From positions 1,550,001 to 1,614,000 of the forward strand of contig NZ_REFW01000001.1 of the NCBI RefSeq assembly GCF_003688855.1: DNA of 64,000 nt, written 5' to 3'. The notes under the pieces are model-generated. The model saw only the letters and a program-made list of their open reading frames with translations. It made no database searches and had not been told where the DNA came from. The stretch comes from Tessaracoccus antarcticus. Its GTDB lineage: Bacteria; Actinomycetota; Actinomycetes; Propionibacteriales; Propionibacteriaceae. A program made the position numbers and the translations under genes. Shown here piece by piece: positions 3,728-40,710 of the stretch (its first letter is position 1; every line of letters begins with the position of its first letter).

Positions 3728-4807
3728 ATGCGTTACGTCGTCATCATGGCCGGCGGGTCCGGCACCAGGTTGTGGCCGTTGTCCCGACAGGGCACCCCCA
3801 AGCAGTTGCTGGAGATCTTCGGCGGCCGCAGCCTCCTGCGGTTGGCCTACGAACGGGTGGCAGGAATGTTCCCGGATGCCCAGATCCTGACCTGCACCTC
3901 CCGCGCCTACGCTGACGTCGTCGCGTCGCAGCTACCCGAGCTGCCGCTGGAGAACATCCTCGGCGAGCCCGTGGGACGGGACTCGCTCAACGCGGTCGCC
4001 TGGTCCGCGGGGGTGCTGGCGGACCGGGACCCGGACGCCGTGGTGGCCATGGTCACGGCCGACCAGGTCATCGAACCCATCGACGAGTTCCAGCGCAGCC
4101 TGGCCCGGGCCTTCGACGTGGTGGAGGCGCACCCCGATGCGCTCGTCACCCTGGGTGTGGTGCCCACCTCAGCGCACACCGGCTACGGCTACCTCCACCG
4201 GGCCGAGGAACTCGACGACTTCGAGGGGGTGCACGCGCTCGCCGAGTTCAAGGAGAAGCCAGCCCTCGAGGTGGCGGAGCGCTACCTCGCCAGCGGCGAG
4301 TACTGGTGGAACGCCGGCATGTTCGTGTGGCGGGCCCAGACCCTGCTGGACCAGCTGGCGATACTCGTCCCGGACACCGCCGCCAAGATCGCCCGGATCG
4401 TCGAGGACCCCACCACGCTGGATGCTGTGTTCCCGACGTTGGAGAAGACGTCTGTGGACTACGCCATCATGGAGCCGGTCTCGGCGGGGCGCACGGATGC
4501 ACGGGTGGTGTCCGTGGGGCTCGACGTCGACTGGCGTGACGTGGGCGGCTACCTCAGCCTGGCCGAACAGTTCAGCAGGGACGCCGACGGCAACGCGGTG
4601 GAGGGTCTGGCCATGGCGCTGGACTCGCAGGGCTGCATCCTCATCAACATGGCCGACGACAACCACCTGGTGGCGGGACTCGGTCTGCGGGACACGCTGG
4701 TGGTGCACACCGACACCTCCACACTGGTGGCGCCGCTGCACGCCACCGAGCGGGTCAAGGAACTCGTCGACCTGGTGCGAACCACCCATGGGGCAGAATT
4801 CGCCTGA
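3728..4807 (+). CDS. manC: mannose-1-phosphate guanylyltransferase
   Basis: 359 residues. It makes GDP-mannose from GTP and mannose 1-phosphate in the cytoplasm. The nucleotidyltransferase signature AGGSGTRLWPLSR is at residues 8-20. FKEKP, WWNAGMFVW and VDYAIMEP are characteristic of this enzyme class, and the length matches stand-alone pyrophosphorylases without a fused isomerase domain. ATG 3728 is chosen because TACGGT stands seven bases upstream and the conserved MRYVVIMAGG opens the protein. Together with manB (11853) it forms the route from mannose 6-phosphate to GDP-mannose for the nearby glycosyltransferases. M. tuberculosis Rv3264c holds the same position near whiB2. Confidence 0.95.
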   Translation: MRYVVIMAGGSGTRLWPLSRQGTPKQLLEIFGGRSLLRLAYERVAGMFPDAQILTCTSRAYADVVASQLPELPLENILGEPVGRDSLNAVAWSAGVLADRDPDAVVAMVTADQVIEPIDEFQRSLARAFDVVEAHPDALVTLGVVPTSAHTGYGYLHRAEELDDFEGVHALAEFKEKPALEVAERYLASGEYWWNAGMFVWRAQTLLDQLAILVPDTAAKIARIVEDPTTLDAVFPTLEKTSVDYAIMEPVSAGRTDARVVSVGLDVDWRDVGGYLSLAEQFSRDADGNAVEGLAMALDSQGCILINMADDNHLVAGLGLRDTLVVHTDTSTLVAPLHATERVKELVDLVRTTHGAEFA

Positions 4808-4854
4808 CCACCCAGCCTGCCCCCACGGAGGCCGGACCTCGAGGGGACACACCA

Positions 4855-5514
4855 GTGCGCATCGCCCGAACACTGCAACACCTGCTGCCCATCATTTTGC
4901 TGGCCGTCGGCTTCCTGGAGTTGGCGGCGCTCATCCCCGTGGCGTTCGACACGCTCGACGTCGGCGGCACGGCCGCCATGCTCGGCCCCAGTTCCTTCCT
5001 GCCGTTGTCGCTTGCCGTGGTGTGGGCTGCACTGCTGCCGCCCAGCGGGTTCGCCCTTGCCGTGAAGGCCGCCACGGCGGCGGGTGCCGTCCTGTTCGCC
5101 GCGGCCAGGGTGGGGCTGACGACGCTCTGGTGGCGTGACTCGCCCGGCATGGGGTGGAGCACGGGCACCCTGGCACTCGCGGGTAGTGCGATGGGGGCCG
5201 CACTCACCGTGTGGGCCATCGTCGATGCGCTCGCCACACGTGGGGCCCTCGCGGAGACCACCGCCACCCCGTCGACCGCTATGCCCGCCACGGCCCAGAC
5301 GGCCAGGGTTGCCGATACCACGCTGCCGGGCTCGCCCACCACGCCGGCGCGGCCCACCTCACCCACCGCGCCCCTCGCCGGCGGGGAGCCTGTCATGCCG
5401 GTTCGACAGCCACCCGTGTGGCAATCGGTGTCGACCCCGTGGCCGCGACGCGACGAGGCCGACCCGGACGGGACACTCATCCGTCCGCCTCTTCGGCACG
5501 GACAGCACAGTTAG
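4855..5514 (+). CDS. hypothetical membrane protein with Pro/Thr-rich tail
   Basis: 219 residues, family not recognised. The first 130 residues carry about four hydrophobic helices (for example LLPIILLAVGFLELAALIPV and FLPLSLAVVWAALLPPSGFAL). The last 85 residues are Ala/Thr/Pro-rich, low in complexity and presumably disordered. GTG 4855 follows GAGGGGA at a good spacing. The gene is 47 bp downstream of manC on the same strand, so co-transcription is likely. No enzymatic motif is visible. Confidence 0.7.
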   Translation: MRIARTLQHLLPIILLAVGFLELAALIPVAFDTLDVGGTAAMLGPSSFLPLSLAVVWAALLPPSGFALAVKAATAAGAVLFAAARVGLTTLWWRDSPGMGWSTGTLALAGSAMGAALTVWAIVDALATRGALAETTATPSTAMPATAQTARVADTTLPGSPTTPARPTSPTAPLAGGEPVMPVRQPPVWQSVSTPWPRRDEADPDGTLIRPPLRHGQHS

Positions 5515-5616
5515 CCCATCCAGAGCACATACCACCGACAAAATGAGTCCGACTCGCCGTGGGGCTTGACGTCAGATGAATTGCACGTGTGTAATTCCCT
5601 GCAGAAGGGAGGCGGC

Positions 5617-5874
5617 ATGGACAACAGCTGGACACTGATCTCGGAACTCGACGGCGCGTTCGCGTGGCAGGAAGAAGCGCTGTGCGCCCAGACCGACCCG
5701 GAGGCTTTCTTCCCCGAAAAGGGGGGCTCCACCCGCGAGGCCAAGCGCGTCTGCCAGGGGTGCAGCGTCAGGACCGAGTGCCTGGAGTACGCACTCGGCA
5801 ACGATGAGCGGTTCGGCATCTGGGGCGGTCTGTCGGAACGCGAGCGGCGAAAGCTGCGGCAAGCGGCCATCTGA
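5617..5874 (+). CDS. whiB2: WhiB-family iron-sulfur regulator (WhiB2/WhmD type)
   Basis: 85 residues. The four cysteines that bind the [4Fe-4S] cluster are C23, C46, C49 and C55 (CxxC in the middle pair). The beta-turn motif GIWGG at 67-71 and a basic tail SERERRKLRQ follow, the complete WhiB plan. WhiB2/WhmD proteins act in septation and cell division in mycobacteria and streptomycetes, probably through the principal sigma factor. ATG 5617 follows GGGAGG; the 17 in-frame upstream codons have no good signal. The placement next to manC and wall genes matches M. tuberculosis Rv3260c. Subfamily naming is inferred from size and context. Confidence 0.9.
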   Translation: MDNSWTLISELDGAFAWQEEALCAQTDPEAFFPEKGGSTREAKRVCQGCSVRTECLEYALGNDERFGIWGGLSERERRKLRQAAI

Positions 5875-5928
5875 CGCCTTAGCGATATCGTCGGACACTG
5901 CACCGGCGAAGCACAGGAGGGCCCCACG

Positions 5929-8900
5929 TTGACGGAGGAACCGCAAGAGGCGCGACCCGTCGACGATCTCTGGGCATGGCTCGACCCCGAGACCCCCGAG
6001 AGCGACCACCGTGCCATCGACCCGGGAACTGTGACCGCCGTCATGGTGGTCCACAACTCCCGGGCCTGGCTGGCACGACAGCTGCTGTCATTGGCCAGGC
6101 TCGATCCGCGCCCGGGCCGCATCGTGGCCGTGGACAACGCCTCCACCGATGACAGCCCCGCCCTCCTGGCGCGCGCCGCCGATGAGGGTGTCCTCGACGC
6201 GGTGGTCACCCAGTCCCACAACAAGGGCTTCGGCGCGGCCGTGGAGGCGGGATTGGCCGGCGCTGCACCGGAGTGGATCTGGCTCCTGCACGACGACTCC
6301 GCCCCCTTCCCCGACACCCTCGGCTCACTCCTCGACGGCGCCGCGCAGACCGGGGCCGCCGTGGTCGTTCCCACGTTGCTGCAGCCCCGACGCCGCAACT
6401 ACCCCGAGACGCTGTCCGAGGCGGGGGCGTCGATCACCCGCAGCGGGCGCCGCATGTCGTTCGTGGACGAGGGGGACATCGACCAGCAGCAACTGACACC
6501 TGAGCCCGTCCTGGGCGGATCCACGGCCGGGATGCTCGTGGCCGGCCACGCCTGGCAGGAGCTGGGCGGTCTCGCGCCCGAGATCCCCCTCCACCGCGAC
6601 GGCGTCGACCTCGGCTGGCGAGCCAACGAGGCGGGGCACCTGGTCACCACGTGGCCCCGGGCGGCACTCACGCACCGGCAGGCGGGCCGCACCGGCGAAC
6701 GGGTGTCCTCACCCCCCGTGCCGTGGCACCGCTCCGACCGTCTGGCAGCGCTGCGTGTCGTCGCCGCTCGGGGCAACCGTCCCACCGGCACACTTGCCCT
6801 GCTCGGTGGCAGCGGTCTGCGCGCCCTGGGATTCCTTCTGGGCAAGTCACCGGCACTGGCCCGGGCAGAACTCGGAGCCGCACGTACCTTCGCCGCCACA
6901 CCTGAGGCCACCACGGCGCTCGCTGCCCGCACCACCCCCGCCCCCGACGCGAGCGCACGGGTCACTCCACTGCTGCCGGCACGCTTCTGGTCGGTGCGCG
7001 ACGGTGTGGACCGATTCGGGGCAGGCGTCGCCGATCGCTACCGCGACCTCGTCGTCACCGACAGCAGCACCAGCATCGATGAGATGACCGGTGATGACTT
7101 CGCCGGGGGCCAGACCAGGCGACGCACGTGGCTGTCACCAGCCCTGCTGGTGCTTGTGGGGCTCGTGATCGTGGGTCTCGTGGCGGGCCGATCCCTGCTG
7201 GGTGCCGTGGGTGTCGCCGGCGGTGGCATGCTCCCGGCCCCGCCGTCGTTGTCGGCCGCCTGGCAGGCCTACCTGCAGCCCGACGTCGGGGTGGGCGGCG
7301 CCAACGCCCCATGGCTGCTGCTGGCCGCATTCTTCTCCACCTTCGTCTTCGCCTCACCGGAGGCGTTCGCCGTCGCCGCCCTGGTGCTGGCACCGGCGTT
7401 GGCCGCGGGCGCCGCGCTGCTCCTCCTGCGGCGGCTGGGGCTCAGGATCGGTGCAGCCGCAGCCGGCGCGGCCCTCTGGGCGGGGGCGGTCCTGCTGCTG
7501 GGGATCGTGGGTGCCGGCGACCTCTCCGGCATGGCGCTGTCCATCACCGGGCCCATGCTGGCCCGCAGCATTCACCGCGTGGCGCTCGACGAGTCCGTGG
7601 GCGCGGAGCGACTCCGCAGCCCTGCAGGCGTTGCTCTCTGGCTCCTCCTGAGCGCGGCTGCATGGCCCGTGGTGCTGCCCCTGCTGAGCATTGCCGCCCT
7701 CGTGTGGATGGTCCTGGACCGGCGACGCTGGGGCGACGTCGCCATCGGCGTGGGTCTGCCGTGGCTTTTCCTGGCGCCGTGGCTCCCCACGCTGGTGCGC
7801 TGGCCGGCCCGGGCGCTGATGGGTGCGGACCCGCTGGCGTGGCCCGACTTCCCGCCCGCCACCTTTGCCCTTCTGGCCGGCCGCATCCTGCCCTCGGGCA
7901 TCCCGCCGTGGGTCAACATGGTGTTCTTCGCCGGCCTGGCCGTAGCGGCGGCCGCAGGACTACTGGCCATGCCCCGCCAGCGCCATCGCATGCTGGTGCT
8001 CGCAGGCGTGGCAGTGCCGCTGCTCGCCGGGGCACTGTCCTCGAAGGTGGCACTGGCCACCCACGGCGGCCAGGCGCGGGCGCTGCTGTCCGGGTGGGCC
8101 CTGCTGGTGGTGGCGGCACTGCTGGTGCCCGTCATGGTGGGGCTGCGCCGCACCGGCCATGGTGACGCCCCCGCCGGGCGCCGTAGCCGCGCAGCGACGT
8201 CGGTTCTGGCGCTGCTCGGCGTGCTCGCGGCCGGTGCGTGGGCCTGGGTGGGTTTCCAGGGCCCGGTGGGACCCTCTCCGAGCGTGCTGCCCGGATACGT
8301 GCGCGACGTCATGACCTCGGAGCGCCAGAGTCGCGTGCTGATGCTGCAGCAGCGCCCCGACGGCACACTGGACTGGAACGCCGTGGATGCCTCCCAGCCG
8401 CAATGGGGGACGGGAGAACGGAACCCGGCCGGCGCGTATGCGGACGAGTTCGGCACGCTCGTGCAGTCACTGGGTGTCGCCGTGGTCCCCGAGGACCTGG
8501 CGAGCACCCTCACGGCCCTGGGTGTCAGCCACATCTACATGGGCGGGTTCAGCGAGGAGTCCCTGGCCAGCGTCGGCAACGCGCCCGGCCTGACCCGGGC
8601 CGCCGTCACGGACGACGCCGTGGTCTGGACGGTGGCGGCACTGCCCAGCCGCATCCGGCTCGTGGCGTCGCAGACCAGCGAACCCGTGGTCGACGGCACC
8701 ATCGCGCCCTCCGACGCCACCCGCCACATCGTGCTCGCCGAGGACGACGACCCGCGCTGGCAGGCCAGCGTGGGTGGCACCGCACTGCAGCGCAGCCCCG
8801 ACCGGCCGCCCGTCACCTTCACGGTGCCCGGGGGTGCCGGCGGTCACCTGGAGTGGGGCATGAAGCCCTCCTGGGCTGCGCTGGGCTGGCAGGGCGCCCT

Positions 8901-8973
8901 GGCAGTGCTCATCCTCGTCCTGATGGCACCCACACTGGGTTCCACCACGTCGGCACGAAGGGTGCGTGAGTGA
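5929..8973 (+). CDS. large family 2 glycosyltransferase fused to a polytopic membrane domain
   Basis: 1014 residues from a TTG start, supported by AGGAGG at 5915-5920. Residues about 35-270 are a GT-A glycosyltransferase domain: TAVMVVHNSRAWL, VAVDNASTDDS, WLLHDDSAP as the metal-binding acidic patch, and LHRDGVDLGWRANEAG. After a linker, about residues 400-770 hold roughly a dozen hydrophobic helices; an extracytoplasmic stretch then ends in a last helix (ALAVLILVLMAP). Proteins of this shape are paired with DUF5719 genes in actinobacteria and are thought to act in envelope polysaccharide synthesis; substrate unknown. The next gene overlaps its stop codon. Confidence 0.85.
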   Translation: MTEEPQEARPVDDLWAWLDPETPESDHRAIDPGTVTAVMVVHNSRAWLARQLLSLARLDPRPGRIVAVDNASTDDSPALLARAADEGVLDAVVTQSHNKGFGAAVEAGLAGAAPEWIWLLHDDSAPFPDTLGSLLDGAAQTGAAVVVPTLLQPRRRNYPETLSEAGASITRSGRRMSFVDEGDIDQQQLTPEPVLGGSTAGMLVAGHAWQELGGLAPEIPLHRDGVDLGWRANEAGHLVTTWPRAALTHRQAGRTGERVSSPPVPWHRSDRLAALRVVAARGNRPTGTLALLGGSGLRALGFLLGKSPALARAELGAARTFAATPEATTALAARTTPAPDASARVTPLLPARFWSVRDGVDRFGAGVADRYRDLVVTDSSTSIDEMTGDDFAGGQTRRRTWLSPALLVLVGLVIVGLVAGRSLLGAVGVAGGGMLPAPPSLSAAWQAYLQPDVGVGGANAPWLLLAAFFSTFVFASPEAFAVAALVLAPALAAGAALLLLRRLGLRIGAAAAGAALWAGAVLLLGIVGAGDLSGMALSITGPMLARSIHRVALDESVGAERLRSPAGVALWLLLSAAAWPVVLPLLSIAALVWMVLDRRRWGDVAIGVGLPWLFLAPWLPTLVRWPARALMGADPLAWPDFPPATFALLAGRILPSGIPPWVNMVFFAGLAVAAAAGLLAMPRQRHRMLVLAGVAVPLLAGALSSKVALATHGGQARALLSGWALLVVAALLVPVMVGLRRTGHGDAPAGRRSRAATSVLALLGVLAAGAWAWVGFQGPVGPSPSVLPGYVRDVMTSERQSRVLMLQQRPDGTLDWNAVDASQPQWGTGERNPAGAYADEFGTLVQSLGVAVVPEDLASTLTALGVSHIYMGGFSEESLASVGNAPGLTRAAVTDDAVVWTVAALPSRIRLVASQTSEPVVDGTIAPSDATRHIVLAEDDDPRWQASVGGTALQRSPDRPPVTFTVPGGAGGHLEWGMKPSWAALGWQGALAVLILVLMAPTLGSTTSARRVRE

Positions 8974-10238
8974 TGCGCAACGTGATCACGCTCGTGACCC
9001 TCCTGGTCCTCGTGGGTGCCGGGCTGGGGCTCTCCCTGCTGCGCCCCACACCCCTGCCACGCACCATCGAGGTGGTGCCGCCCGCGACGACGAAGCTCGT
9101 CTGCGCACCCATGGCGCAGGCGGGGACGCTCTTCGTCGACGGGGCGGACACCATCACGCCCCTCGGTGGCGACGGCATTGTGGCGGTGGGGCCCACCCAG
9201 GTCCCGGACCAGAGCGGAGCGTCCGTGATCCTCGGAGGGTCGGCCCTGGTGGGAGGGATGCTCACGCTCGGCGACGGCACCGGCGGTTGGACGCCGTGCA
9301 CCGCGCCCACCTCCCAGGGCACCATCGTGGTGCCCGGCGCCGCCGACACCGACCTGCTGGTGGTCAACCCCGATTCCTCCGAGGCCGTCGTGGACCTGTC
9401 CCTGTACGGCACCAACGGAGAAATCGTGGCGCTCGGGGCACGCGGCATCGCGCTCGGGCCTCACTCCACCCGCGCCATCGCGCTGTCGGTGCTCGTGGAG
9501 CAGGACGGGCCCATCGGCGTCAGCTTCAGCGCCAGCCGGGGACGCGCCACCGTCGTGGCCCGCACCACCACCGCGCGCGGCGTGCTCGAGACCGCCACGG
9601 CCTCCACCCAGGGCACCGATCACTGGCTCCCGGGCGTGCAGGCCGGTGCCACCGTCGCCAGCCTGCTGGTGACCAACCCCGGCAATGAACGCGCCGTCGT
9701 CGACGTCACAGCCCACGGTGCCTCCGTGGCCTACCAGCCCGAGGGTGGTGCCGGGGTGTCGGTGCCGGCGCACAGCAGCATCGCCGTCGACCTCGCCCCG
9801 TCGCTGGCGGGCGAGGCCACGGGCCTGCACGTCACCGCCGACATCGACGTGGCGGTCAGCCTCTCCACCGGAAACGGGTCGGACCTCGCCTTCACCGCTC
9901 CCGTGACGACGTCGAACCGATTGGGCGCCTACGCCCCCGCCGGCGGGGTGCTGCAAGTGTCCAACCCCGGTGAGACGGACCTGGAGGTCTCCCTCGTGGA
10001 CGATGTCGTCGACGGCCGGAGTACCACCACGGAGCACACGGTGCCGGCGGGCAGCACCCTGGCCCTGCCCCTGGAATCCAGCGCCCCGCGCGGGCAGGTG
10101 GTGACCATCACCGCCAACAGGCCGCTGTTCGGTGCCGTCGTCGGGTCCGACACCGGTGTCAGCATCGTTCCGTTGTCATCCAGGGCGGCACCGGAGGTCT
10201 CGCCCGTGGACGCCGAGATCGTGCCCACCCTGCGATGA
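8970..10238 (+). CDS. DUF5719 family secreted or anchored protein
   Basis: About 422 residues. A single N-terminal hydrophobic segment (VITLVTLLVLVGAGLGLSLL) acts as signal or anchor. The rest is rich in beta-prone repeats such as TDLLVVNPDSSEAVVDLSLY, VASLLVTNPGNERAVVDV and VLQVSNPGETDLEVSLV, three similar modules about 100-150 residues apart. DUF5719 proteins accompany the large glycosyltransferase in actinobacteria, suggesting an extracellular partner. Starts at GTG 8970 (4-base overlap with the upstream stop) and ATG 8973 (1-base overlap) are both possible; either implies translational coupling. Confidence 0.8.
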   Translation: MMRNVITLVTLLVLVGAGLGLSLLRPTPLPRTIEVVPPATTKLVCAPMAQAGTLFVDGADTITPLGGDGIVAVGPTQVPDQSGASVILGGSALVGGMLTLGDGTGGWTPCTAPTSQGTIVVPGAADTDLLVVNPDSSEAVVDLSLYGTNGEIVALGARGIALGPHSTRAIALSVLVEQDGPIGVSFSASRGRATVVARTTTARGVLETATASTQGTDHWLPGVQAGATVASLLVTNPGNERAVVDVTAHGASVAYQPEGGAGVSVPAHSSIAVDLAPSLAGEATGLHVTADIDVAVSLSTGNGSDLAFTAPVTTSNRLGAYAPAGGVLQVSNPGETDLEVSLVDDVVDGRSTTTEHTVPAGSTLALPLESSAPRGQVVTITANRPLFGAVVGSDTGVSIVPLSSRAAPEVSPVDAEIVPTLR

Positions 10239-10256
10239 GGATCTGAGAGCAGCCAC

Positions 10257-10994
10257 GTGTTCATTGGATTCGGCACGGTCGTCAACGTGCTCACCGTGCT
10301 GGCCGGTGCCTCCCTGGGCCTGCTCATCGGCAACCGACTGCCCGAGCGCACGCGCACGCTGGTGACCGACTGCCTGGGCCTTGTCACCATCGTCATTGGC
10401 ATCTTCGCCTGCCTCTCCATGACCAGCGACGCCGTGACCGCGCAGCTGGGTGCCGGGGTGGGCCTGCTCGTGGTGCTGGGTTCCCTGCTGCCGGGCGCGC
10501 TGCTGGGGTCGTGGCTGCGGCTCACGGAACGGCTCGAAGGGGGCGCTGAGAAGCTTCGTGGCCGGTTCGCCGCCACCGGTTCGCAGCACTTCGTGGAGGG
10601 CATCATCACACCAGTCCTGGTGTTCTGCGTCGGCCCTCTCACCATCATGGGCTCCATTTCCGACGGCCTCGGCCTGGGCTCGCAGCAGTTGCTCGTGAAA
10701 TCCGTCCTCGACGGCTTCGCCTCCATCGCCTTCGCCGCAAGCCTCGGCGTGGGTGTGCTGTTCTCCGCGGGCGCCGTCGGCGTCATCCAGGGTGGGATGA
10801 CGCTGGCCGCGTTCCTGCTCGGCGGTTTCCTGGCCCCCGCCCAGGTGGACCTGCTGGAGGCCACCGGCGGTGTCATCCTCATCGGGCTGGGCCTGCGCCT
10901 GCTGGACCTGCGGAAGATCCGGGTGGCGGACATGCTGCCTGCCCTGGTCATCGCGCCCGTGCTCACCTGGGTGCTGGCGCCAGTACTGGGGTAG
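10257..10994 (+). CDS. DUF554 family membrane protein
   Basis: 245 residues with about seven hydrophobic segments. The opening FIGFGTVVNVLTVLAGASLGLLIG and the internal HFVEGIITPVLVFCVGPLTIMGS are hallmarks of the DUF554 (YdfK-like) family of inner-membrane proteins, possibly transporters, of unknown substrate. It begins with GTG 10257, 18 bp after the DUF5719 gene, and is probably the last gene of that operon because the next gene is on the opposite strand. Confidence 0.8.
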   Translation: MFIGFGTVVNVLTVLAGASLGLLIGNRLPERTRTLVTDCLGLVTIVIGIFACLSMTSDAVTAQLGAGVGLLVVLGSLLPGALLGSWLRLTERLEGGAEKLRGRFAATGSQHFVEGIITPVLVFCVGPLTIMGSISDGLGLGSQQLLVKSVLDGFASIAFAASLGVGVLFSAGAVGVIQGGMTLAAFLLGGFLAPAQVDLLEATGGVILIGLGLRLLDLRKIRVADMLPALVIAPVLTWVLAPVLG

Positions 10995-11003
10995 CGGCTG
11001 GGC

Positions 11004-11441
11004 TCAGAGGTCCCAGTCCGCGTCGTCGATGCCGGTGAGCTCCGCCAAAGGGGTACCGGTCAACGCACTCAACTGCTCCACGATGGTGCGGTACACGAGT
11101 CGTCGCAGTTGGGCACGTGTGACGGCGCGGTGCTCCAGGGGGCGTTCATAGAGGACCACCTGCGCCTTGGAATCGCCCGTTCCCTCGAGCGCCGCGGACA
11201 TGGGGACGCGGTCCGCCGACCATGTGGGGGACCACTGCGGTACGTCCTCCACACCCACGAGAACCCCGTCGAGCGCCGTAGGGTTCACGGCGGCGATGGC
11301 ACTCATGGCGTCGGTGACGCAGTCGGTGAAGAAGTCGGTCCGGCTCGGGTGGCGCAGCGGCACCGGTCGCGAGGACCAGGTGTGGGGGAGCGCCAGGGGT
11401 CCGCGGATCCCGCGGCCGTGTCGATCCCTGCTGCGTGGCAT
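11004..11441 (-). CDS. Rv3259-like metallopeptidase-family protein, motif degenerate
   Basis: 145 residues. The core VVLYERPLEHRAVTRAQL followed by YRTIVEQLSALTG corresponds to the actinobacterial small zincin-like family that sits opposite the DUF3499 gene (Rv3259 in M. tuberculosis). The zinc-binding HExxH is absent: the position reads RTIVEQL, so peptidase activity is unlikely. The first 30 residues are basic and variable. A TAGAGT -10 ends six bases before the ATG with no ribosome site, implying a leaderless transcript divergent from DUF3499. Confidence 0.7.
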   Translation of the reverse strand: MPRSRDRHGRGIRGPLALPHTWSSRPVPLRHPSRTDFFTDCVTDAMSAIAAVNPTALDGVLVGVEDVPQWSPTWSADRVPMSAALEGTGDSKAQVVLYERPLEHRAVTRAQLRRLVYRTIVEQLSALTGTPLAELTGIDDADWDL

Positions 11442-11447
11442 GCCACA

Positions 11448-11473
11448 ACTCTAGCCAAGAAGGGGGGTAACCT
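11448..11473. promoter_or_regulatory. two back-to-back leaderless promoters
   Basis: Within a 38-bp intergenic space, TAGAGT reads leftward at 11453-11448 (six bases before ATG 11441) and TAACCT reads rightward at 11468-11473 (six bases before GTG 11480). There is no room for 5' untranslated regions, so both transcripts should start at or next to their first codon. Confidence 0.6.
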
Positions 11474-11479
11474 CATCGC

Positions 11480-25726: not shown

Positions 25727-27079
25727 TCAGATGTTGGCCGGGTTCGGCGCCGCCTGGTAGGGGTTCGTCGTCTCCAGGCCGCCCGAGTCCAGGATGATGG
25801 TTTCGATGGCGGGATCGCCCTTGCTGATCCGCAGGGCGGACGGCGGCAGTTCGGCCAGCGAGTCCAGGTGCCGCTGCCGGGCATCCTCCAGCGTTGAGTG
25901 GTCCACCACCTCGCCATCCTTGACGATGTCCACGAGCAGGTAGCGGTCGTTGCCGTCTGTGGCGGGCGCAGTGCCCAGACCGATGACCTCGGCCTCCGCC
26001 CGGCCGTTGTCGTCGAGGCGCCGCATGGCGAACTTGCGCCCGCCCAGGGTGTTCTTCCCCTTCGACTTCTTGCCCACCGCGGTCATGGGGGCGCTCCGAT
26101 CGGCGGATTCGGCCCGCGCCACCAGCTTGTACACGAAACCGACGGTGGGGTGGCCGGAACCGGTGACCAGCGAGGTGCCCACGCCGTAGCCGTCCACCGG
26201 TGTGCCCCGCAGCGCGGCGATCTGCCACTCGTCCAGGTCGGAGGTGACGACGATGCGGGTGTCGGTGGCCCCCAGGTCATCCAGCAGGTCGCGGGCGCGG
26301 CGGGCGGCGCTGGCGAGGTCGCCTGAGTCCAGCCGGATGGCACCCAGCTTCCCATCGGTCAGTTCAACGCCCTTGCGGATGGCGGCCTCCTCGTCGTAGG
26401 TGTCCACCAACAGGGTCGTGCCGGTGCCGAAGGCCGCGATCTGGGCGCGGAAGGCGTCCTCTTCGCTGTCGTGCAGGAGAGTGAATGAGTGGGCGGCGGT
26501 CCCCATGGTGGGGATGCCCCAACTGCGGCCCGCCTCCAGGTTCGACGTCGCGGCGAACCCGGCCACGTAGGCGGCACGGGCGGCACCGACGGCGGCCCAC
26601 TCGTGCGTCCGGCGTGACCCCATCTCGGAGCAGGGGCGCCCCTCGGCCATCGACGTCATACGGGACGCGGCCGAAGCGATGGCGCAGTCATGGTTGAAGA
26701 TGCTGAGCAGGAGTGTCTCCAGCACACAGCACTCCGCGAACGAGCCCTCGACGGACAGCACGGGGGAGCCGGGGAAGAAGACCTCCCCCTCCGGGTAGCC
26801 CCAGATGTCACCGGAGAAGCGGTAGTTGGCCAGCCAGGTGGCGAGATTGTCCTTGATGATCCCGGCACCTGCCAGGTACTCAACCTCTGCCTCGTCGAAC
26901 CGGAATGCCTCGATTCCCCGCAGGGCGCGGCCCAGACCGGCCAGCACGCCGTAGCGACGACCCTCGGGCAGGCGCCGCGTGAAGAGGTCGAAAAGGCTGT
27001 GCCGGTCCGCGGTGCCGGCATCCATGGCGGCCTGCACCATGGTGAGTTCGTAATGGTCCGTCAGGAGCGCCGTCGTCAT
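25727..27079 (-). CDS. pncB: nicotinate phosphoribosyltransferase
   Basis: 450 residues; converts nicotinate and PRPP to nicotinate mononucleotide for NAD salvage. Motifs: [18 protein letters not shown] at the start, the catalytic histidine region [12 protein letters not shown], and the phosphate-binding RLDSGDLA and [11 protein letters not shown]. Length is typical of the actinobacterial form. ATG 27079 is chosen because [14 protein letters not shown] begins there; TACGCT lies eight bases upstream (27088-27093). It is divergent from clpS. Confidence 0.94.
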
Positions 27080-27087
27080 GGTCCGCA

Positions 27088-27093
27088 AGCGTA
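27088..27093 (-). promoter_or_regulatory. pncB -10 element
   Basis: TACGCT on the minus strand ends eight bases before ATG 27079. There is no ribosome site; a leaderless or near-leaderless transcript is expected. Confidence 0.45.
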
Positions 27094-27155
27094 GCCGCCC
27101 GGACCCCCGTGGCGGGGGTGTGCACATTGTTGTCAGGCTTTGGAACAATGGGGGC

Positions 27156-27461
27156 ATGAGCGAGCAGGGCAGGCCGTCAACCGGCACGGGCGTGGCGGTG
27201 ATGGACGCACCGGAGGCAGCCACCGACCTCGCGTCACAGTGGGTGACGATCGTGTGGGACGACCCCGTGAACCTCATGAGTTACGTGGCCTACGTCTTCA
27301 TGGAGTACTTCAAGTACCCGCGCATGAAGGCGGAGAAGCTGATGCTCCAGGTGCACACGCACGGCAAGGCGGTGGTCTCCACCGGGAACCGGGAGTCCAT
27401 GGAGCGCGACGTCATGGCCATGCAGAACTACACACTGTGGGCCACCATGGAGCGCGCATGA
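27156..27461 (+). CDS. clpS: ATP-dependent Clp protease adaptor
   Basis: 101 residues. The core [20 protein letters not shown] corresponds to the N-degron pocket, where DDPVN and the following methionine are characteristic, and [20 protein letters not shown] to the ClpA/C-binding face. ClpS delivers N-end-rule substrates to the Clp unfoldase. ATG 27156 lies six bases after an AACAAT-type -10 with no ribosome site. The stop overlaps the DUF2017 start by four bases, a pairing conserved in actinobacteria. Confidence 0.93.
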
Positions 27462-28015
27462 GCGACGACGACATCGTCTGGGAGTTCGACGGCGGCGACG
27501 GCCGCACCGACGTGCTCATGGCGCTGGTGGTGCAGCAGCTCAACGCCCTGGACTCCCTCCTGCCCGAGGGGGAGGATGAGGACGACCCCATGGCCCGGCT
27601 GGCAGCTGAACTCTCGGAGCGTCCCGTGGAACTGCTGGACTCCAACCCCGCCCTTGCCAGGCTCTTCCCGCCAGCACTGGCGGATGCGAAGGAGGCTGAG
27701 CAGTTCCGTCGCGACGCCATCGGGCAGCAGGCACGTGCCCGCCGGACGGCCGGACGCACGGTGCTGGCGGACTGCGCCGTCGACGACGGTGTCGACGACG
27801 GGATGGTGGCGGTCAGGAAGGACCACGTGGATGCCTGGGTCACCACGCTGGCGGGTCTGCGTGCCGCGTGGAACGTGGAGTTGACGGGCAGCGCCGAGCG
27901 GCAGGTGTCCGTGTCGCGGTCCAACATCCGGGCCAACCCCACGGCCGCCACGATCTGCGACTGGCTGGGCGCGGTGCTGGAGGACGCGCTCCAGGCGCAC
28001 ATGTTCCAGTCCTGA
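27458..28015 (+). CDS. DUF2017 family protein
   Basis: 185 residues, acidic. It shows the DUF2017 pattern: a start around [19 protein letters not shown], a charged middle, and the end [16 protein letters not shown] segment [15 protein letters not shown] with a C-terminal helix [18 protein letters not shown]. The family follows clpS across actinobacteria, so a role with the Clp adaptor is suspected but not shown. The ATGA overlap implies translational coupling. Confidence 0.85.
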
Positions 28016-35725: not shown

Positions 35726-35940
35726 GTCGACCTTCCCCCCAGAAGGACCGACCTGGCCGGCCGGAACGATTTGCTTCAAGACTTTTCCGACAATTCGCCG
35801 GATTGTTCCTGTTGGCAAAACCATAGCGGCAAATCAACCGGGACGCCAACAGTTGATGCAAAAACCCCCAAAGTTGATTGGTATTCGCGCCGAAGGGCGG
35901 GCACGGCCATCAGGCGCGGGGCTGCCGGTGGACCCGCTGC

Positions 35941-35946
35941 TAGAAT
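35941..35946 (+). promoter_or_regulatory. tRNA-Leu -10 element
   Basis: TAGAAT lies 14 bases before the first base of the tRNA-Leu gene. The 80-bp stretch upstream is comparatively A/T-rich. Confidence 0.4.
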
Positions 35947-35960
35947 CGCTGCGCCAGCCA

Positions 35961-36042
35961 GCCGAAGTGGTGGAATTGGTAGACACGCAGGATTTAGGAT
36001 CCTGTGCCTTCGGGCGTGAGGGTTCAAGTCCCTTCTTCGGCA
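35961..36042 (+). tRNA. tRNA-Leu(UAG)
   Basis: The acceptor stem GCCGAAG/CTTCGGC closes, with discriminator A at 36042. The anticodon stem CAGGA/TCCTG encloses loop TTTAGGA with anticodon TAG at 35995-35997, a long variable arm follows (class II), and the T arm is GGTTCAAGTCC. The 82-nt gene is intact. Its 3' end is the left attachment site of the island, and insertion has kept the tRNA functional. Confidence 0.95.
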
Positions 36043-36043
36043 C
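36019..36043 (+). repeat. attL core (25-bp direct repeat, left copy)
   Basis: The copy begins AGGGTTCAAGTCC and ends TTCGGCAC; it covers the T arm and 3' acceptor strand of tRNA-Leu. The flanking bases differ from the right copy on both sides, which fixes the limits. Confidence 0.88.
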
Positions 36044-36104
36044 GACACCTATGGCCCTTTGGCTAGGGGTTTTCCTTCCAGGCAATCCACCGAGGCGTCA
36101 TGGT

Positions 36105-36125
36105 GTGCCCAATACGTGCCCAATG
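36105..36125 (+). repeat. left arm-type integrase sites (two copies)
   Basis: Two direct copies of GTGCCCAAT at 36105 and 36116 are spaced 11 bp apart, about 60 bp inside attL. The same unit occurs three times beside the integrase start. This is the expected pattern for arm-binding sites of a tyrosine recombinase. Confidence 0.65.
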
Positions 36126-36278
36126 GCATGGCGTTTGGGCCCCCTCACAGGAATTGACACCACGCTAGGGGACTCACCCGAATAGAGCGAGCGGCATGGC
36201 GAACCCGATTGCAGCGAGCGGAGGTGGGTCCTCGTGAGCCGACGCTCGAGTGTGCCGCCCCTAGCTCGGGGCGTTCAC

Positions 36279-36884
36279 CTAGTAGAATTCGTGTGACTGG
36301 GCCGCGGCCCTTCGCTCCGCACCCAGTTCGGAGACTAGCGATGAAGCACCTTCTACCCCATCCAGGATCCAGACGGGACCGTCCCTGCCGGTGGTCGTCA
36401 TAAGAACACCCTCCTCCGCGAGAGCGAGAGCCCCTGCCGAGTACCTGTGCGAGCGATCATCTCTTGCGACCCCCGTTACTCCCACAAGAGTCGCTCCCCG
36501 CAGCAGGCTGCGGCGCGCTCGGGCCACGACACGCTGCCAGCATTTGAATCCTTCCGGTTCGGACGCAACAGCACCTATCATCATTTCATTGAGATGTCCG
36601 TCTGACGGATGCATGATCATGACGCTCAAGAAACCCGGGTTCTGGTCCATGAACTCTAGGTTCGTCCACCGGCGGTCGTCGAGGAAAGGTTCAGTCCTGA
36701 AGAGGGCTAGGTACACGTTGGCCCTTGACAGGGTCACGTCCCATCTGTCCCTCTCCATGACGATCCTGCGGTCATCAAACGTCAGCGCCACCCCTTGGCA
36801 GTCCAATCCTGCTAGCCAGCGGCGTAGGAGAGTTCCGACTTCACTGGCAGGCGCATGGAACTGCAACCGTGTCGACATCGTCAT
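36279..36884 (-). CDS. island cargo gene B, unknown function
   Basis: 201 residues, family not recognised. It has no signal peptide or membrane helix. The N-terminal half (LQFHAPASEVGTLLRRWLAG, then GVALTFDDRRIVMERDRWDV) looks like mixed alpha/beta; the C-terminal half has VWILDGVEGASSLVSELGAE. No catalytic motif is visible. The ATG overlaps the stop of gene A by four bases (ATGA), so the two are translationally coupled and probably form a functional pair. Its role with the nuclease-like gene A is unknown: a sensor, inhibitor or accessory subunit. Confidence 0.75.
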   Translation of the reverse strand: MTMSTRLQFHAPASEVGTLLRRWLAGLDCQGVALTFDDRRIVMERDRWDVTLSRANVYLALFRTEPFLDDRRWTNLEFMDQNPGFLSVMIMHPSDGHLNEMMIGAVASEPEGFKCWQRVVARARRSLLRGATLVGVTGVARDDRSHRYSAGALALAEEGVLMTTTGRDGPVWILDGVEGASSLVSELGAERRAAAQSHEFY

Positions 36885-38365
36885 GCCATACCCTCCTCAG
36901 TTGTACGGAGCGATTCAAGTTCGCCGACTGATATGACGGCGATCGGCAGATCTCGCTGCGGGAGCCGCTCGGCAAGAATCCAGTTCTGATCGGCGTAGAA
37001 CGGCTCAAGCGTCACGACCAGTCCGACCCGGGGCTTCGCCGGACCGATCGACGGTTCGCGTTCGGCGATGGCTTCAATATCGCGATGCGACCGATTGAGT
37101 TGCCTGATCCCCTTCCCGATGCTGCTTTCGACCGAGTCGATCCAGTCGCCGCTCCCTACCCTCAGTGATTCCACCGGCTGCCGAGCCTTGCACTCGATGA
37201 GCACCAGCACTCCCGGAAGGTCCAGAAACCAGTCGCAAGAGTCGGTCTGCGACTTCCGAGGGCCGTACCGGAGTTCTGGGATGACCTGGCGGTCGCCGGC
37301 GACGAGGTCGAGTTGTCGTCCGACGTAGTGTTGGAAGACCGGACCAAGGTCGCGCGTGAAGCTGTCGCCCAGCGCGCGAGTCCCCATGTGGTATATCGAC
37401 GGTGGTACCGCTTTTCGCATGATCGCCTGTACCCACGGCGCGATCGGGATGGGTGCGACGTCATCGATGAAGGGCTTGTCGTCGAGGGGATTGAACGCGT
37501 ACTTCTTCTGCGCCTTCGGCAGTGGATCCTGAAAGCGCCGGTTCGCCTCCTTGAAGTCAGCCGCGGTGGTGACGAGATACTCGGTGAACGTGCGGCGGAT
37601 GGCATCGTAAGGGATTGCTTCAATGAGGTCGTCCCAGCCCGGCCCATTGAACAAGTCGAGGGAGAAGCCACCGTTGTGTTGCTCCGTCATGGTGGAGATC
37701 AGGAACAGACTCTCGACATAATCCTCCAGCGTCAGCCCATCCGTGATGGTCTCGAACCAGCCCGGTGTCATGGCCTCCGGGGCGAAGCCAGGAGGCATCT
37801 CGACTGCGGACCCGAACAGAAGGATCGTGCGCGCGATCTGGCCGGGGTTGGAGTGCTGGCTAGGAAACTGTTCGAAGAAGTGCCTCGCGAGCACTTGCCC
37901 GAGCCCCTCGGTGGAGGTCGGATCACGGACGAGGCCCTCATCGGCGAGTTGGACGCACTGGTTGCACAGGCGGAGGAGCGTGCGCCGGTCGGCTTCCGGT
38001 CGCTCGAAACTGCTCCAGGAAAGCGCCGTACGAGCGACGTCAGCGACGCACCAGGGAGTGAGCCCCATCCGGGTCAGTTCTTTCGGCAGCTCCTCGAGGG
38101 CGATCTGAGCGGTAACTGCTGCAGCCTGGACGAGGAGACTGTCGCGGTCGACCCTGCGGACCGCGCTCTTGTACCGATCCCACGTCGGTGGTGATGCAGT
38201 CGAGCCGCGGATGGGAAACTTCACTCGGGGATTCTCGCATCTTTGCCGACACAATCGTTGAAATCCGTCCGAGTCGGAGGCATTAGCGCTCAGCCCGGCC
38301 CAGCCAATGTGTTGCCACTTTTCCGTCACGTGGTCATGCGCGTCCGGCCCGACGCTCGTCGACAT
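36881..38365 (-). CDS. island cargo gene A, PD-(D/E)XK nuclease-like protein
   Basis: 494 residues from ATG 38365; GTG 38224 (353 codons further in, giving VKFPIRGSTASP) may be the true start because the first 47 residues look less protein-like. The first 350 residues are mostly helical and unrecognised (QAAAVTAQIALEELPKELTR, GLTLEDYVESLFLISTMTEQ). Residues 355-395 carry E364, D378 and E391-C-K393 in VLVLIECKARQP, with hydrophobic strands around them: the E...D...ExK arrangement of PD-(D/E)XK nucleases. The tail ends with alternating strands (RVGLVVTLEPF, PIAVISVGEL). First gene of a two-gene operon on the island. The nuclease call is by motif. Confidence 0.75.
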   Translation of the reverse strand: MSTSVGPDAHDHVTEKWQHIGWAGLSANASDSDGFQRLCRQRCENPRVKFPIRGSTASPPTWDRYKSAVRRVDRDSLLVQAAAVTAQIALEELPKELTRMGLTPWCVADVARTALSWSSFERPEADRRTLLRLCNQCVQLADEGLVRDPTSTEGLGQVLARHFFEQFPSQHSNPGQIARTILLFGSAVEMPPGFAPEAMTPGWFETITDGLTLEDYVESLFLISTMTEQHNGGFSLDLFNGPGWDDLIEAIPYDAIRRTFTEYLVTTAADFKEANRRFQDPLPKAQKKYAFNPLDDKPFIDDVAPIPIAPWVQAIMRKAVPPSIYHMGTRALGDSFTRDLGPVFQHYVGRQLDLVAGDRQVIPELRYGPRKSQTDSCDWFLDLPGVLVLIECKARQPVESLRVGSGDWIDSVESSIGKGIRQLNRSHRDIEAIAEREPSIGPAKPRVGLVVTLEPFYADQNWILAERLPQRDLPIAVISVGELESLRTTEEGMA

Positions 38366-38403
38366 GATGTATCCGAGCTCTCATCGACCCCGCCACCACT
38401 CCA

Positions 38404-38814
38404 GTGTCACAGCGGCTACAGGACCAAGGAAAGTCCCTGCGCGTGCTGTGGAGCTGGCCGACGCTCAGCCAGCCGATTTCCGAATGTGACGACTGGACCG
38501 ACCTCGCGCGTCCGTCACCCAAAGGCGCGCCGAAGCCGTGGAGTCCGGTGCTTGCGATGGAGCGACTCGGGCTGGCACAGATCGCCCGGCCGTCGGAAGA
38601 GGGCTACAACCGCCACGGCTTCGTCTACGGGCGACAGGTGGCCATCCGACGGAACGCACCCTTCCCGTTGAACACGATGTTCCACAACCGGTGCACTTCG
38701 TACTCGGCCACCGCAGCACCCGACATCCCCGACGGACCCTCCTACCGACTCCGCAACCACCACGCCCAAGCAAACGAACTCCGCCGCATCACAACCGGTA
38801 CCAACACCCGCTGA
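38404..38814 (+). CDS. hypothetical 136-residue frame, perhaps a remnant
   Basis: Codon use is coding-like (G/C third positions, few rare codons), and the protein contains WTDLARPSPKGAPKPWSPVL and RLGLAQIARPSEEGYNRHGF, unlike a random frame. No family is recognised. GTG 38404 has no good ribosome site, and the open frame continues upstream to 38368, so this may be the 3' part of a truncated gene. It diverges from gene A. Confidence 0.4.
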   Translation: MSQRLQDQGKSLRVLWSWPTLSQPISECDDWTDLARPSPKGAPKPWSPVLAMERLGLAQIARPSEEGYNRHGFVYGRQVAIRRNAPFPLNTMFHNRCTSYSATAAPDIPDGPSYRLRNHHAQANELRRITTGTNTR

Positions 38815-38819
38815 CCTGA

Positions 38820-39372
38820 CCCCGCGACCCGGGAACTTCGATGAGCAACTCCGGGGATATTCGATGAGCGCCGTCAAAGCGCACCCATCCGCCTCAAGTA
38901 GCTAATCACCCGCTTTTTGCGGCGTCTCGTTTATCTACAGATGGATGAGACGTCTTCGCTTGCTAGCGAGGCCGCACCGGACCTCGCTAGGTCTACAACA
39001 ACGAACTGTCGTAAAAAGTCATCTTGCCAAAGAACGTCTCAGCCATCATGCTTCTCAGGGTTCATGAGGCAGAACGATCGCGTGACATCTATCAGGCGCC
39101 AGCGCCACCAACCGCGGCAGCAGCCGGATGTGGCGCGCTCGCCGTGGCAGCGCTGCCCGGTTCCTGACCGTTGATCACATCGAAGGTGGAGAGTTCGTCT
39201 CACTGGACGTGTCACGGGAGGCCACTTACCTCTGCGGTTCCAAGCGTGACGCCGCGCCACCATGCCTCGCCCGATCCGATAATTGCAGAACCATGTCTCG
39301 GAACCTATGGCGCCGCTTTTGTTAATCTCTCGGAAGAAGGTGAGAAGCGTGCTGGCCGTGGCCTATTGGTCG
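38820..39372. other. island stretch without a convincing gene
   Basis: About 550 bp. GC is lower than average, short frames on both strands lack ribosome sites and codon bias, and there are no strong hairpins or repeats. It lies between the small frame and the integrase 3' end and may hold remnants of lost cargo. Confidence 0.5.
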
Positions 39373-40530
39373 TCAATCCGAGGATGATGGTCGCCTCACA
39401 CAGTCCAAAGCAGCGGCCAGTCGCCTGTCTGCATCTGCGAGGGCGTGAGTGTATCGCATGGTCATCCCGGCAGTCGTGTGCCCGAGGCGGCGCATGGTGA
39501 CGGGTGTGGGAGCGCTGAGGTCAGCCGCCAAGGAAGCGTGGGTGTGTCGTAGCACATGGGGAGTCGCATCCGGCCGGCCTACGGCTCGGGCGGCTTTGGC
39601 AAAGGCGCGAGCGAATACCGAGGAGTGAAGGTGTCGGCCGTCAGGCGCATGGATCAGTAGGCCGTCAGGTCCTGGCAAAGCATACAGATCGAGATGAAGC
39701 CGCAGCTCCAGAAGCAGGCTGAGTGGCATGTGAACGGTACGTTAGCCGGCGTCGGTCTTGGGTGCACCAACTTCGAAACCCCCGGGTACCTTGATCACGG
39801 CCCGCTGGACCCGGATCGTTCCGTCTTCAGCGTCCATGTCCCTTCGTCGAAGCTCGGCAAGCTCTCCGTAGCGGAGACCACACCAGCCACCGATCAGGAC
39901 GGACAGACGTAGATGAGCAGGCATCTTGTCTGCCAGCGCTTCCAGTTCGACGACTGAAAGTGGTTCTATCCTGCGGGCCGTCTTCGTGCGGATCCGTGTG
40001 CGCCGGGGAAGTGCAGCCGGGTTACTCGGCAATAGATCCAGTTCAACTGCACCGTTCAAGGCTGTGTGTAAAAACTGAAAGGCTTTTGATCTAGCTCTTG
40101 GCTTTGTCGGATCGAGGGCTTCCCACCAAGTCCTCACATGCAACTTGGACAGTTCCTGCAGAACCACTTCACCAAGTTGCGGCTCGATATGGTTGCGAAG
40201 CAGTGACTCATAGTCGCGCCGGGTGGTCGGGCGCAGTTCGACAGAAGGCAGCCAGCCACTGATGAACAGCGAGACCGTCACCGGCCCTCCCGCCAGCGGA
40301 CCGTCTCCGCCACAAGGGCTGGCCGCTACTGCCTGCTCTCGTTCCCAAGGGGATGCCCAAAGACCGCGCTCCACCAGTTCACGCTCGCGAGCGAGCCATC
40401 CCTCGGCATCCGCTTTGTTGGTGAAGGTGACTGTAGCTTGGTGTCTGTTGCCGTCTGGCCCCATGTATCTGGCCTGATAACGCTTGGACGGCAGCCTTCT
40501 GATTGATCCGAATCCGCGCTTGCCTGCCAT
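39373..40530 (-). pseudogene. tyrosine integrase interrupted by one in-frame stop
   Basis: The frame starts at ATG 40530 (GGAGGA upstream) with MAGKRGFGSIRRLPSKRYQA, an N-terminal AP2-like arm-binding domain. A SAM-like core-binding domain follows (GWLPSVELRPTTRRDYESLL), then the catalytic domain with the first arginine in GLRYGELAEL. A TAA at 39744-39742 breaks it after GAPKTDAG. The same frame continues RTVHMPLSLL and includes HVLRHTHASLA (HxxR), LGHT and the nucleophile in MTMRYTHALAD. Every catalytic residue is present and no frameshift is needed, so a single base change explains it. ATG 39729 could start a separate C-terminal product. Integration specificity is tRNA-Leu. Confidence 0.88.
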
Positions 40531-40541
40531 GATCCTCCGTC

Positions 40542-40571
40542 GTGCCCAATACGTGCCCAATACGTGCCCAT
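40542..40571 (+). repeat. right arm-type sites at the integrase promoter (three copies)
   Basis: GTGCCCAATA occurs at 40542 and 40553 and GTGCCCAT at 40564, with an 11-bp period, 12-41 bp upstream of the integrase ATG. The position suggests both integrase binding for recombination and autoregulation. Confidence 0.65.
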
Positions 40572-40685
40572 CGTAGTCCCTTTGGGGGGCTCTACGTACG
40601 CGTGAAGGGTCAAGGGGGATGCGTTAAAGCCCTACTCAGGAAGACTTTTGAGGACCTGAGTGGACACTTGGGAGTCGAATGCGGA

Positions 40686-40710
40686 AGGGTTCAAGTCCCT
40701 TCTTCGGCAC
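40686..40710 (+). repeat. attR core (25-bp direct repeat, right copy)
   Basis: Identical over 25 bp to 36019-36043, but not attached to a tRNA structure here. It marks the island's right end, 156 bp beyond the integrase start. Confidence 0.88.

Follow-up and report, generated by a model that had tools for sequence, protein, structure and literature searches.

What does gene A, an open reading frame (ORF) on the tRNA-Leu island of Tessaracoccus antarcticus, encode, and does its product belong to a defence system? The stretch of DNA analysed here (the window) is 64,000 nucleotides (nt) of contig NZ_REFW01000001.1, positions 1,550,001 to 1,614,000 of the forward strand. An earlier note, made from the sequence alone, had read residues E364, D378 and E391-C-K393 of the gene A product as the layout of a PD-(D/E)XK nuclease, fused to about 350 helical residues that it could not assign, and had proposed a role in defence. 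We consider it probable that gene A encodes an actinobacterial, GapS1-related single protein with a helical N-terminal domain and a C-terminal metal-dependent PD-(D/E)XK nuclease. This reading rests on sequence kinship, motif conservation, predicted fold and gene neighbourhood, from which we infer the activity, the roles of individual residues, the trigger, the target and protection. The features of gene A, all on the minus strand, are as follows (aa, amino acids; AF2, AlphaFold2).

36881..38365, minus: gene A, GapS1-like protein, 494 aa from its ATG
37367..38197, minus: helical N-terminal domain, residues about 57-333 (AF2 model; aligns with GapS1 and, tentatively, Upx)
36908..37366, minus: PD-(D/E)XK nuclease core, residues 334-486 (motif conservation and AF2 model)
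37274-37276, minus: E364
37232-37234, minus: D378
37193-37195, minus: E391, within VLIECKA, which starts at 37204
37187-37189, minus: K393, preceded by C392
37100-37102, minus: Q422

Motif, fold and kinship of the gene A protein

The motif residues named in the earlier note are all present where it had placed them. To these we compared two sets of relatives. Alignment A2 combines the window protein with relatives from 28 of 37 loci (36 genome loci and 1 viral contig), which are 476-523 aa long with starts chosen by a script. It omits the frame-broken L024, four near-copies or duplicate records (L029, L033, L038 and L040) and the partial L047, L050, L051 and L053; motif residues of these loci were checked separately, except for L053, whose match ends before the sites. 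Among the 29 aligned proteins, D378, K393 and Q422 are invariant, and positions 364 and 391 are each E in 28 and D in 1. The second set comprises every locus beyond the window with a match spanning the sites, 47 in total, of which two are one plasmid record. Pairwise alignments show E at position 364 in 46 of these loci and D in 1, E at position 391 in 44 and D in 3, and D378, K393 and Q422 in 47/47. The genome loci had been chosen via a pattern at residues 448-457 and not via these five sites. Near-invariance in both the 29 aligned proteins and the 47 loci indicates that conservation of the motif is beyond chance, and the retention of E-D-ExK in homologs that the earlier note had asked to see is found in the form E-D-(E/D)xK.

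The AF2 model of gene A (predicted local distance difference test score, pLDDT, 81.5; predicted template modelling score, pTM, 0.80) is helical in its N-terminal part, which is followed by a PD-(D/E)XK core. In the modelled core, a helix (334-352) is followed by three strands (360-363, 379-382 and 387-393), a second helix (408-428) and a further strand (446-452), which is the helix, three strands, helix, strand order of PD-(D/E)XK enzymes. Restriction and CRISPR nucleases are among the structural neighbours of this predicted core in the PDB. Conserved motif and predicted core order thus bear out the nuclease layout, and the fold comparison suggested in the earlier note came out in its favour. 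McrC, FokI, BspD6I, Can2/Card1, HamA and Shedu SduA align with gene A mainly over the nuclease core. The best whole-chain match among solved folds is Upx (PDB 9wuf), by a margin that is not wide; the match covers residues 35-438 with the gene A model and 35-524 with the model of the relative L022, at 8% identity. The lead of Upx over the other structural rows is not large for the L022 model, and the two models are not fully independent because they were built from one set of sequences. Upx is a defence system reportedly described by Gao et al. in 2020. It differs from gene A in having 1212 residues, a length of about 1200 that neither gene A nor its 28 aligned relatives approach, and in giving no sequence match to gene A in PDB searches.

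Sequence libraries offered little. A single-sequence search of the PDB gave a best E of 1.1, which we considered unrelated, and profile searches of PDB sequences returned no credible match; Foldseek against viral models found none at E<=0.001. Pfam held no family for gene A up to E=1 apart from DUF6443 (E 0.12), which was discarded as chance. The DUF4263, NERD, RES and Mrr families proposed in the earlier note for comparison accordingly gave no Pfam match in gene A at that threshold, and a weak NERD match (8.2e-4) occurs in 1 of the 29 aligned proteins. No family of PHROGs, and 0 families of PADLOC-DB 2.0.0 (2023 release) up to E=1, matched gene A.

The closest named family is GapS1, which is said to stem from the gamma-mobile-trio paper of Mahata et al. 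2024. The NCBIfam model NF047931 ('antiphage_GapS1') matched gene A weakly by hmmscan (E 1.4e-13), aligning gene A residues 95-460 with positions 27-379 of the 455-position profile. The score of 50.5 bits does not reach the membership threshold, the curated cut-off being 320. All proteins of A2 but L022 (28 of 29) matched this model at E<=0.01. The Phold paper describes a Klebsiella prophage carrying a protein similar to GAPS1 (PMC12774648), and a conference report states that GAPS1 of Klebsiella pneumoniae protects against many phages (PMC12908700). The Klebsiella prophage protein (L056) scored 393 bits, above the cut-off. We aligned it with five relatives (alignment A3), the prophage protein alone having been scored against the cut-off, and compared A3 with the 29-sequence actinobacterial profile using hhalign. 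The two profiles aligned over 406 columns (probability 99.2%, E 1.7e-19), so that homology to GapS1 extends across most of the gene A chain. The helical part that the earlier note could not assign thus aligns with GapS1 and, tentatively, with Upx in structure.

Gene A and GapS1 are similar in length, and W, Q, R, D, (D/E)xK, Q and E positions are common to both: in the joint alignment of actinobacterial and GapS1 rows, W105, Q166, R179, D378, K393, Q422 and E484 are identical in 35/35, and all 35 sequences have D or E at position 391. In contrast, identity in aligned columns is 18%, gene A lies far under the curated cut-off, and E364 is kept in the actinobacterial branch only (S, Y, E, D, D and E in the six GapS1 rows). 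A tree split the 29 actinobacterial rows from the 6 GapS1 rows with full support, placing them on opposite sides; it was midpoint-rooted and long branches meet there, which leaves it uncertain how the two sides are related. Within it, the window protein stands beside L022 (97/96), inside a clade of six (97/98). Judged by sequence, gene A belongs to a divergent branch of actinobacterial proteins akin to the anti-phage family GapS1. A literature search by name, with subscription journals outside its coverage, found no description of this branch. This adds to the anti-phage nuclease family, whose model-passing member in our comparison comes from a Klebsiella prophage, a separate branch in actinobacteria that escapes Pfam and the 2023 PADLOC models. 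In intact relatives, the helical domain may sense infection or mediate assembly, and the nuclease, once set free upon infection, would cut the DNA of the phage and perhaps that of the host. E364, D378 and E391 would hold the metal and K393 would be catalytic, with Q422 on the following helix.

As a separate observation, the Klebsiella prophage carries, at 26579-27655 and 35848-37395, the GapS1 protein above cut-off together with a protein that weakly resembles GapS4b (E 6.8e-6; 25.1 bits, the cut-off being 300).

Relatives and their gene neighbourhoods

The nearest relative, L024 of Nocardioides zeae, is a frame-broken copy that is 86% identical in its best segment; five further relatives (L019-L023) are 55-60% identical. 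Every one of the 36 genome loci with relatives has an actinobacterial title. A tblastn search of phage records with gene A found none at E<=0.01, and viral contigs gave none with the single protein as query and one with the profile. The distribution of the family is patchy. Among 96 relatives' genomes, a gene A match was found in the window's own genome only, and 396 genomes of the phylum gave 3 matches at E<=0.001 (the own genome, G191 and a weak partial match in G224). Both frequencies are lower bounds; in the genomes listed, no more than 3 candidates were scored with the A2 profile. The GapS1 model gave 0 matches above cut-off in 197 genomes of the class and 3 matches in all, two of them to longer proteins of unsure kinship. 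This too is a lower bound, since such genome searches can miss members: the GapS1 model missed the window's own genome, which hmmscan matches.

We then considered the genes beside the relatives. A simple GC-position script listed 120 neighbour ORFs, some of them likely spurious; 88 ORFs from 20 loci were scanned together against PADLOC, and 20 proteins were also scanned singly. Left out of the joint scan were 20 ORFs of L036, L037, L038 and L040, which are near-copies of L035, along with 12 more ORFs, most of them short. The joint scan listed 25 of 78 families. Through the single scans, at least 12 of the 88 ORFs, in at least 6 of the 20 loci, could be assigned matches at E<=1e-20, a second type IIG match not being traced to its ORF; the neighbourhood analysis proposed in the earlier note thus places known defence genes near relatives. 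Singly resolved matches number two in L020, one in L021, one in L023, four in L035, three in L043 and one in L045. A neighbour in L032 falls just short of the threshold (2.3e-19), and singly scanned neighbours in L024, L034, L049 and L054 gave no match.

Genes for type I HsdS and HsdR immediately precede the relative in L020, as does one for a candidate defence helicase (PDC-S28) in L021, and a type IIG enzyme is encoded about 2.2 kb upstream of it in L023. In L043 (6786-11227), it is divergent from a locus of the cyclic-oligonucleotide-based antiphage signalling system (CBASS) with two different cyclases and a four-transmembrane effector. In L045, a GmrSD_N-Schlafen gene is nearby and a nucleotidyltransferase-domain gene ends 47 nt upstream. 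L035 contains a type II CBASS operon (cyclase at 5145-6110, E2, E1-E2, JAB, SAVED-TIR), followed after 109 nt by the relative. An ImmA/IrrE-type (M78) peptidase gene and a helix-turn-helix gene lie on the opposite strand, a pair that we take to resemble CapP-CapH. The L035 layout (3894-11479) recurs in L036, L037, L039 and L040 and is cut by the locus end in L038; gene identities come from the scan of L035, and the other copies were matched by ORF order. We counted these cassettes as one event, and contamination of some draft or metagenome-assembled genomes is possible. The cassette is near-identical across records titled as different actinobacterial genera, and in L039 and L040 the flanks are near-identical as well.

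As a control, we scanned 55 ORFs that lie in the window but off the island. They matched 22 models at 1e-20, with one member each (best 9.7e-70), and 18 of these models are PD-T4-6, a kinase. This control is one chromosomal region, counted in models and not in distinct genes, so the contrast in defence neighbours is suggestive only. Known defence genes of type II CBASS and restriction-modification thus neighbour GapS1-like relatives at several loci, which together with the kinship to GapS1 supports at family level the defence role proposed in the earlier note. The actinobacterial branch thereby gains a link with loci of CBASS and restriction-modification, and its predicted fold ties it tentatively to Upx. 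A broader scheme is conceivable but doubtful: GapS1, the actinobacterial branch and the N-terminal half of Upx may form one defence-nuclease superfamily with a common helical sensor domain, and one actinobacterial clade may have been built into type II CBASS operons (cyclase, E2, E1-E2, JAB, SAVED-TIR, GapS1-like gene) as a second nuclease effector that moves with the operon between genera.

The window copy and alternative readings

The ORF of gene A is real, with two qualifications. Its ATG is probably too early, because residues 1-56 have a pLDDT <50 and because L019 and L022 have their first possible start at about residue 46, no earlier start existing. The true start is probably the GTG at 38224-38222 (codon 48), giving about 447 aa. 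Start codons of the relatives were picked by script near the expected place, and the start evidence is that of L019 and L022 only. At the other end, the window copy is truncated and has lost its tail. At the DNA level, the window resembles L024 with 82.7% similarity between 36909 and 38711, and the match breaks off sharply on either side; the lower break cuts gene A after about residue 486. Beyond residue 488 the window protein has 6 residues, compared with 47-78 in 28/28 aligned relatives, and in the model of the full-length L022 protein the tail has three helices (446-458, 480-487 and 490-497). The replacement tail overlaps GAGGAGGGT, a Shine-Dalgarno-like leader of gene B. The remaining features of the island are as follows.

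35961..36043, plus: tRNA-Leu (TAG), integration site
36019-36043, plus: attL core, 25 nt, tRNA 3' end
36105..36124, plus: 20-nt repeat near attL
36279..36884, minus: gene B, 201 aa, without a known family; shares 4 nt with the end of gene A
36881..36907, minus: replaced tail of gene A, last 8 codons and stop; overlaps the gene B leader
38374..38688, plus: divergent-gene remnant; 105 aa align with a Nocardioides zeae protein at 67% identity
38724..38876, plus: IS21 remnant, istB end and following stretch, 79.9% to a Corynebacterium atrinae plasmid
39373..40560, minus: tyrosine integrase, in-frame TAA at 39742-39744; part downstream still open
40542..40572, plus: same 20-nt repeat near attR, two overlapping copies
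40686..40710, plus: attR core, exact 25-nt copy of the tRNA 3' end

The minimal integrative element described in the earlier note is therefore real as to its tRNA-Leu, att repeats and integrase, but it is damaged. Loss of the C-terminal tail at the junction with the gene B leader, together with the integrase stop, makes the window copy's own activity doubtful. We give an even chance to window gene A being a dead remnant of a once-active defence nuclease on a decaying island, a reading compatible with the family assignment. The shortened tail, with its three helices missing relative to the L022 model, the integrase stop, the neighbouring gene cut beside the IS21 remnant and the frame-broken state of the nearest relative all point that way. 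However, about 440 codons are open without a stop, the entire catalytic core is present and modelled, and the ratio of nonsynonymous to synonymous substitution rates (dN/dS) against L024 is 0.135 and 0.23 in two long segments, values that average both lineages. Pairwise dN/dS is 0.135-0.25 in seven comparisons of >200 codons, with synonymous sites near saturation except against L024. Such ratios are consistent with past purifying selection. The intact relatives are of more interest than the damaged window copy.

The relatives also include plasmid genes, and the nuclease might serve a mobile element or plasmid, in processing or plasmid competition, instead of anti-phage defence. Searching with gene A by tblastn found 22 plasmid records, 15 of them from Streptomyces (25.6-31.4% identity among the 20 matches listed), and 3 of the 10 plasmid regions read place the gene towards one end of a linear Streptomyces plasmid, with a helicase-type gene close by. 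We regard this role as unlikely given the CBASS and restriction-modification neighbours at several genome loci and the kinship with GapS1, itself reported as protective in the conference report cited above. A GapS1-related defence nuclease is the reading that we favour over it. We dismiss as very improbable a two-gene module of A and B (toxin-antitoxin or nuclease-regulator), for which their same orientation and 4-nt overlap would speak: by tblastn gene B was not found in the 48 other fetched gene A loci (some with little flank; L009 and L033 are one record), 4 of the order's 292 other genomes contain weak relatives of it, and similarity to L024 ends at 36909, so that the overlap falls in replaced sequence carrying the gene B leader and need not reflect functional coupling. 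In G063, gene B has two tandem matches, one with an internal stop.

The tRNA-Leu island

The island has a G+C content of 61.2%, compared with 67.8% in about 5 kb on either side; alone this is weak evidence for an island because equally low or lower values occur elsewhere in the window (for example, 57.6% at 53-54 kb). The repeats inside both island ends are possible arm-type sites of the integrase. The divergent-gene remnant is cut at the start of HELGH, which is present in the Nocardioides zeae (L024) protein and which we take to be a zincin-like motif; Pfam gave no match for the remnant or for this counterpart. The upper end of the L024 similarity cuts the divergent gene close to the IS21 istB end. 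A direct repeat at the IS21 remnant (38828-38846 and 38851-38869) may represent the end repeats of that element.

A clean empty site was sought in genomes G013 and G032, and none was demonstrated in either. In G013, the tRNA-Leu runs into a 46-bp stretch that is 85% like the window attR and right flank, and the alpha-galactosidase gene sits on a different contig; in G032, the tRNA-Leu and the alpha-galactosidase gene are about 42 kb apart. Both genomes have a 25-nt near-copy (96%) of the att core away from the tRNA (G013:C81:3197-3221 and G032:C4:25705-25729), which suggests other integrations at tRNA-Leu in the genus.
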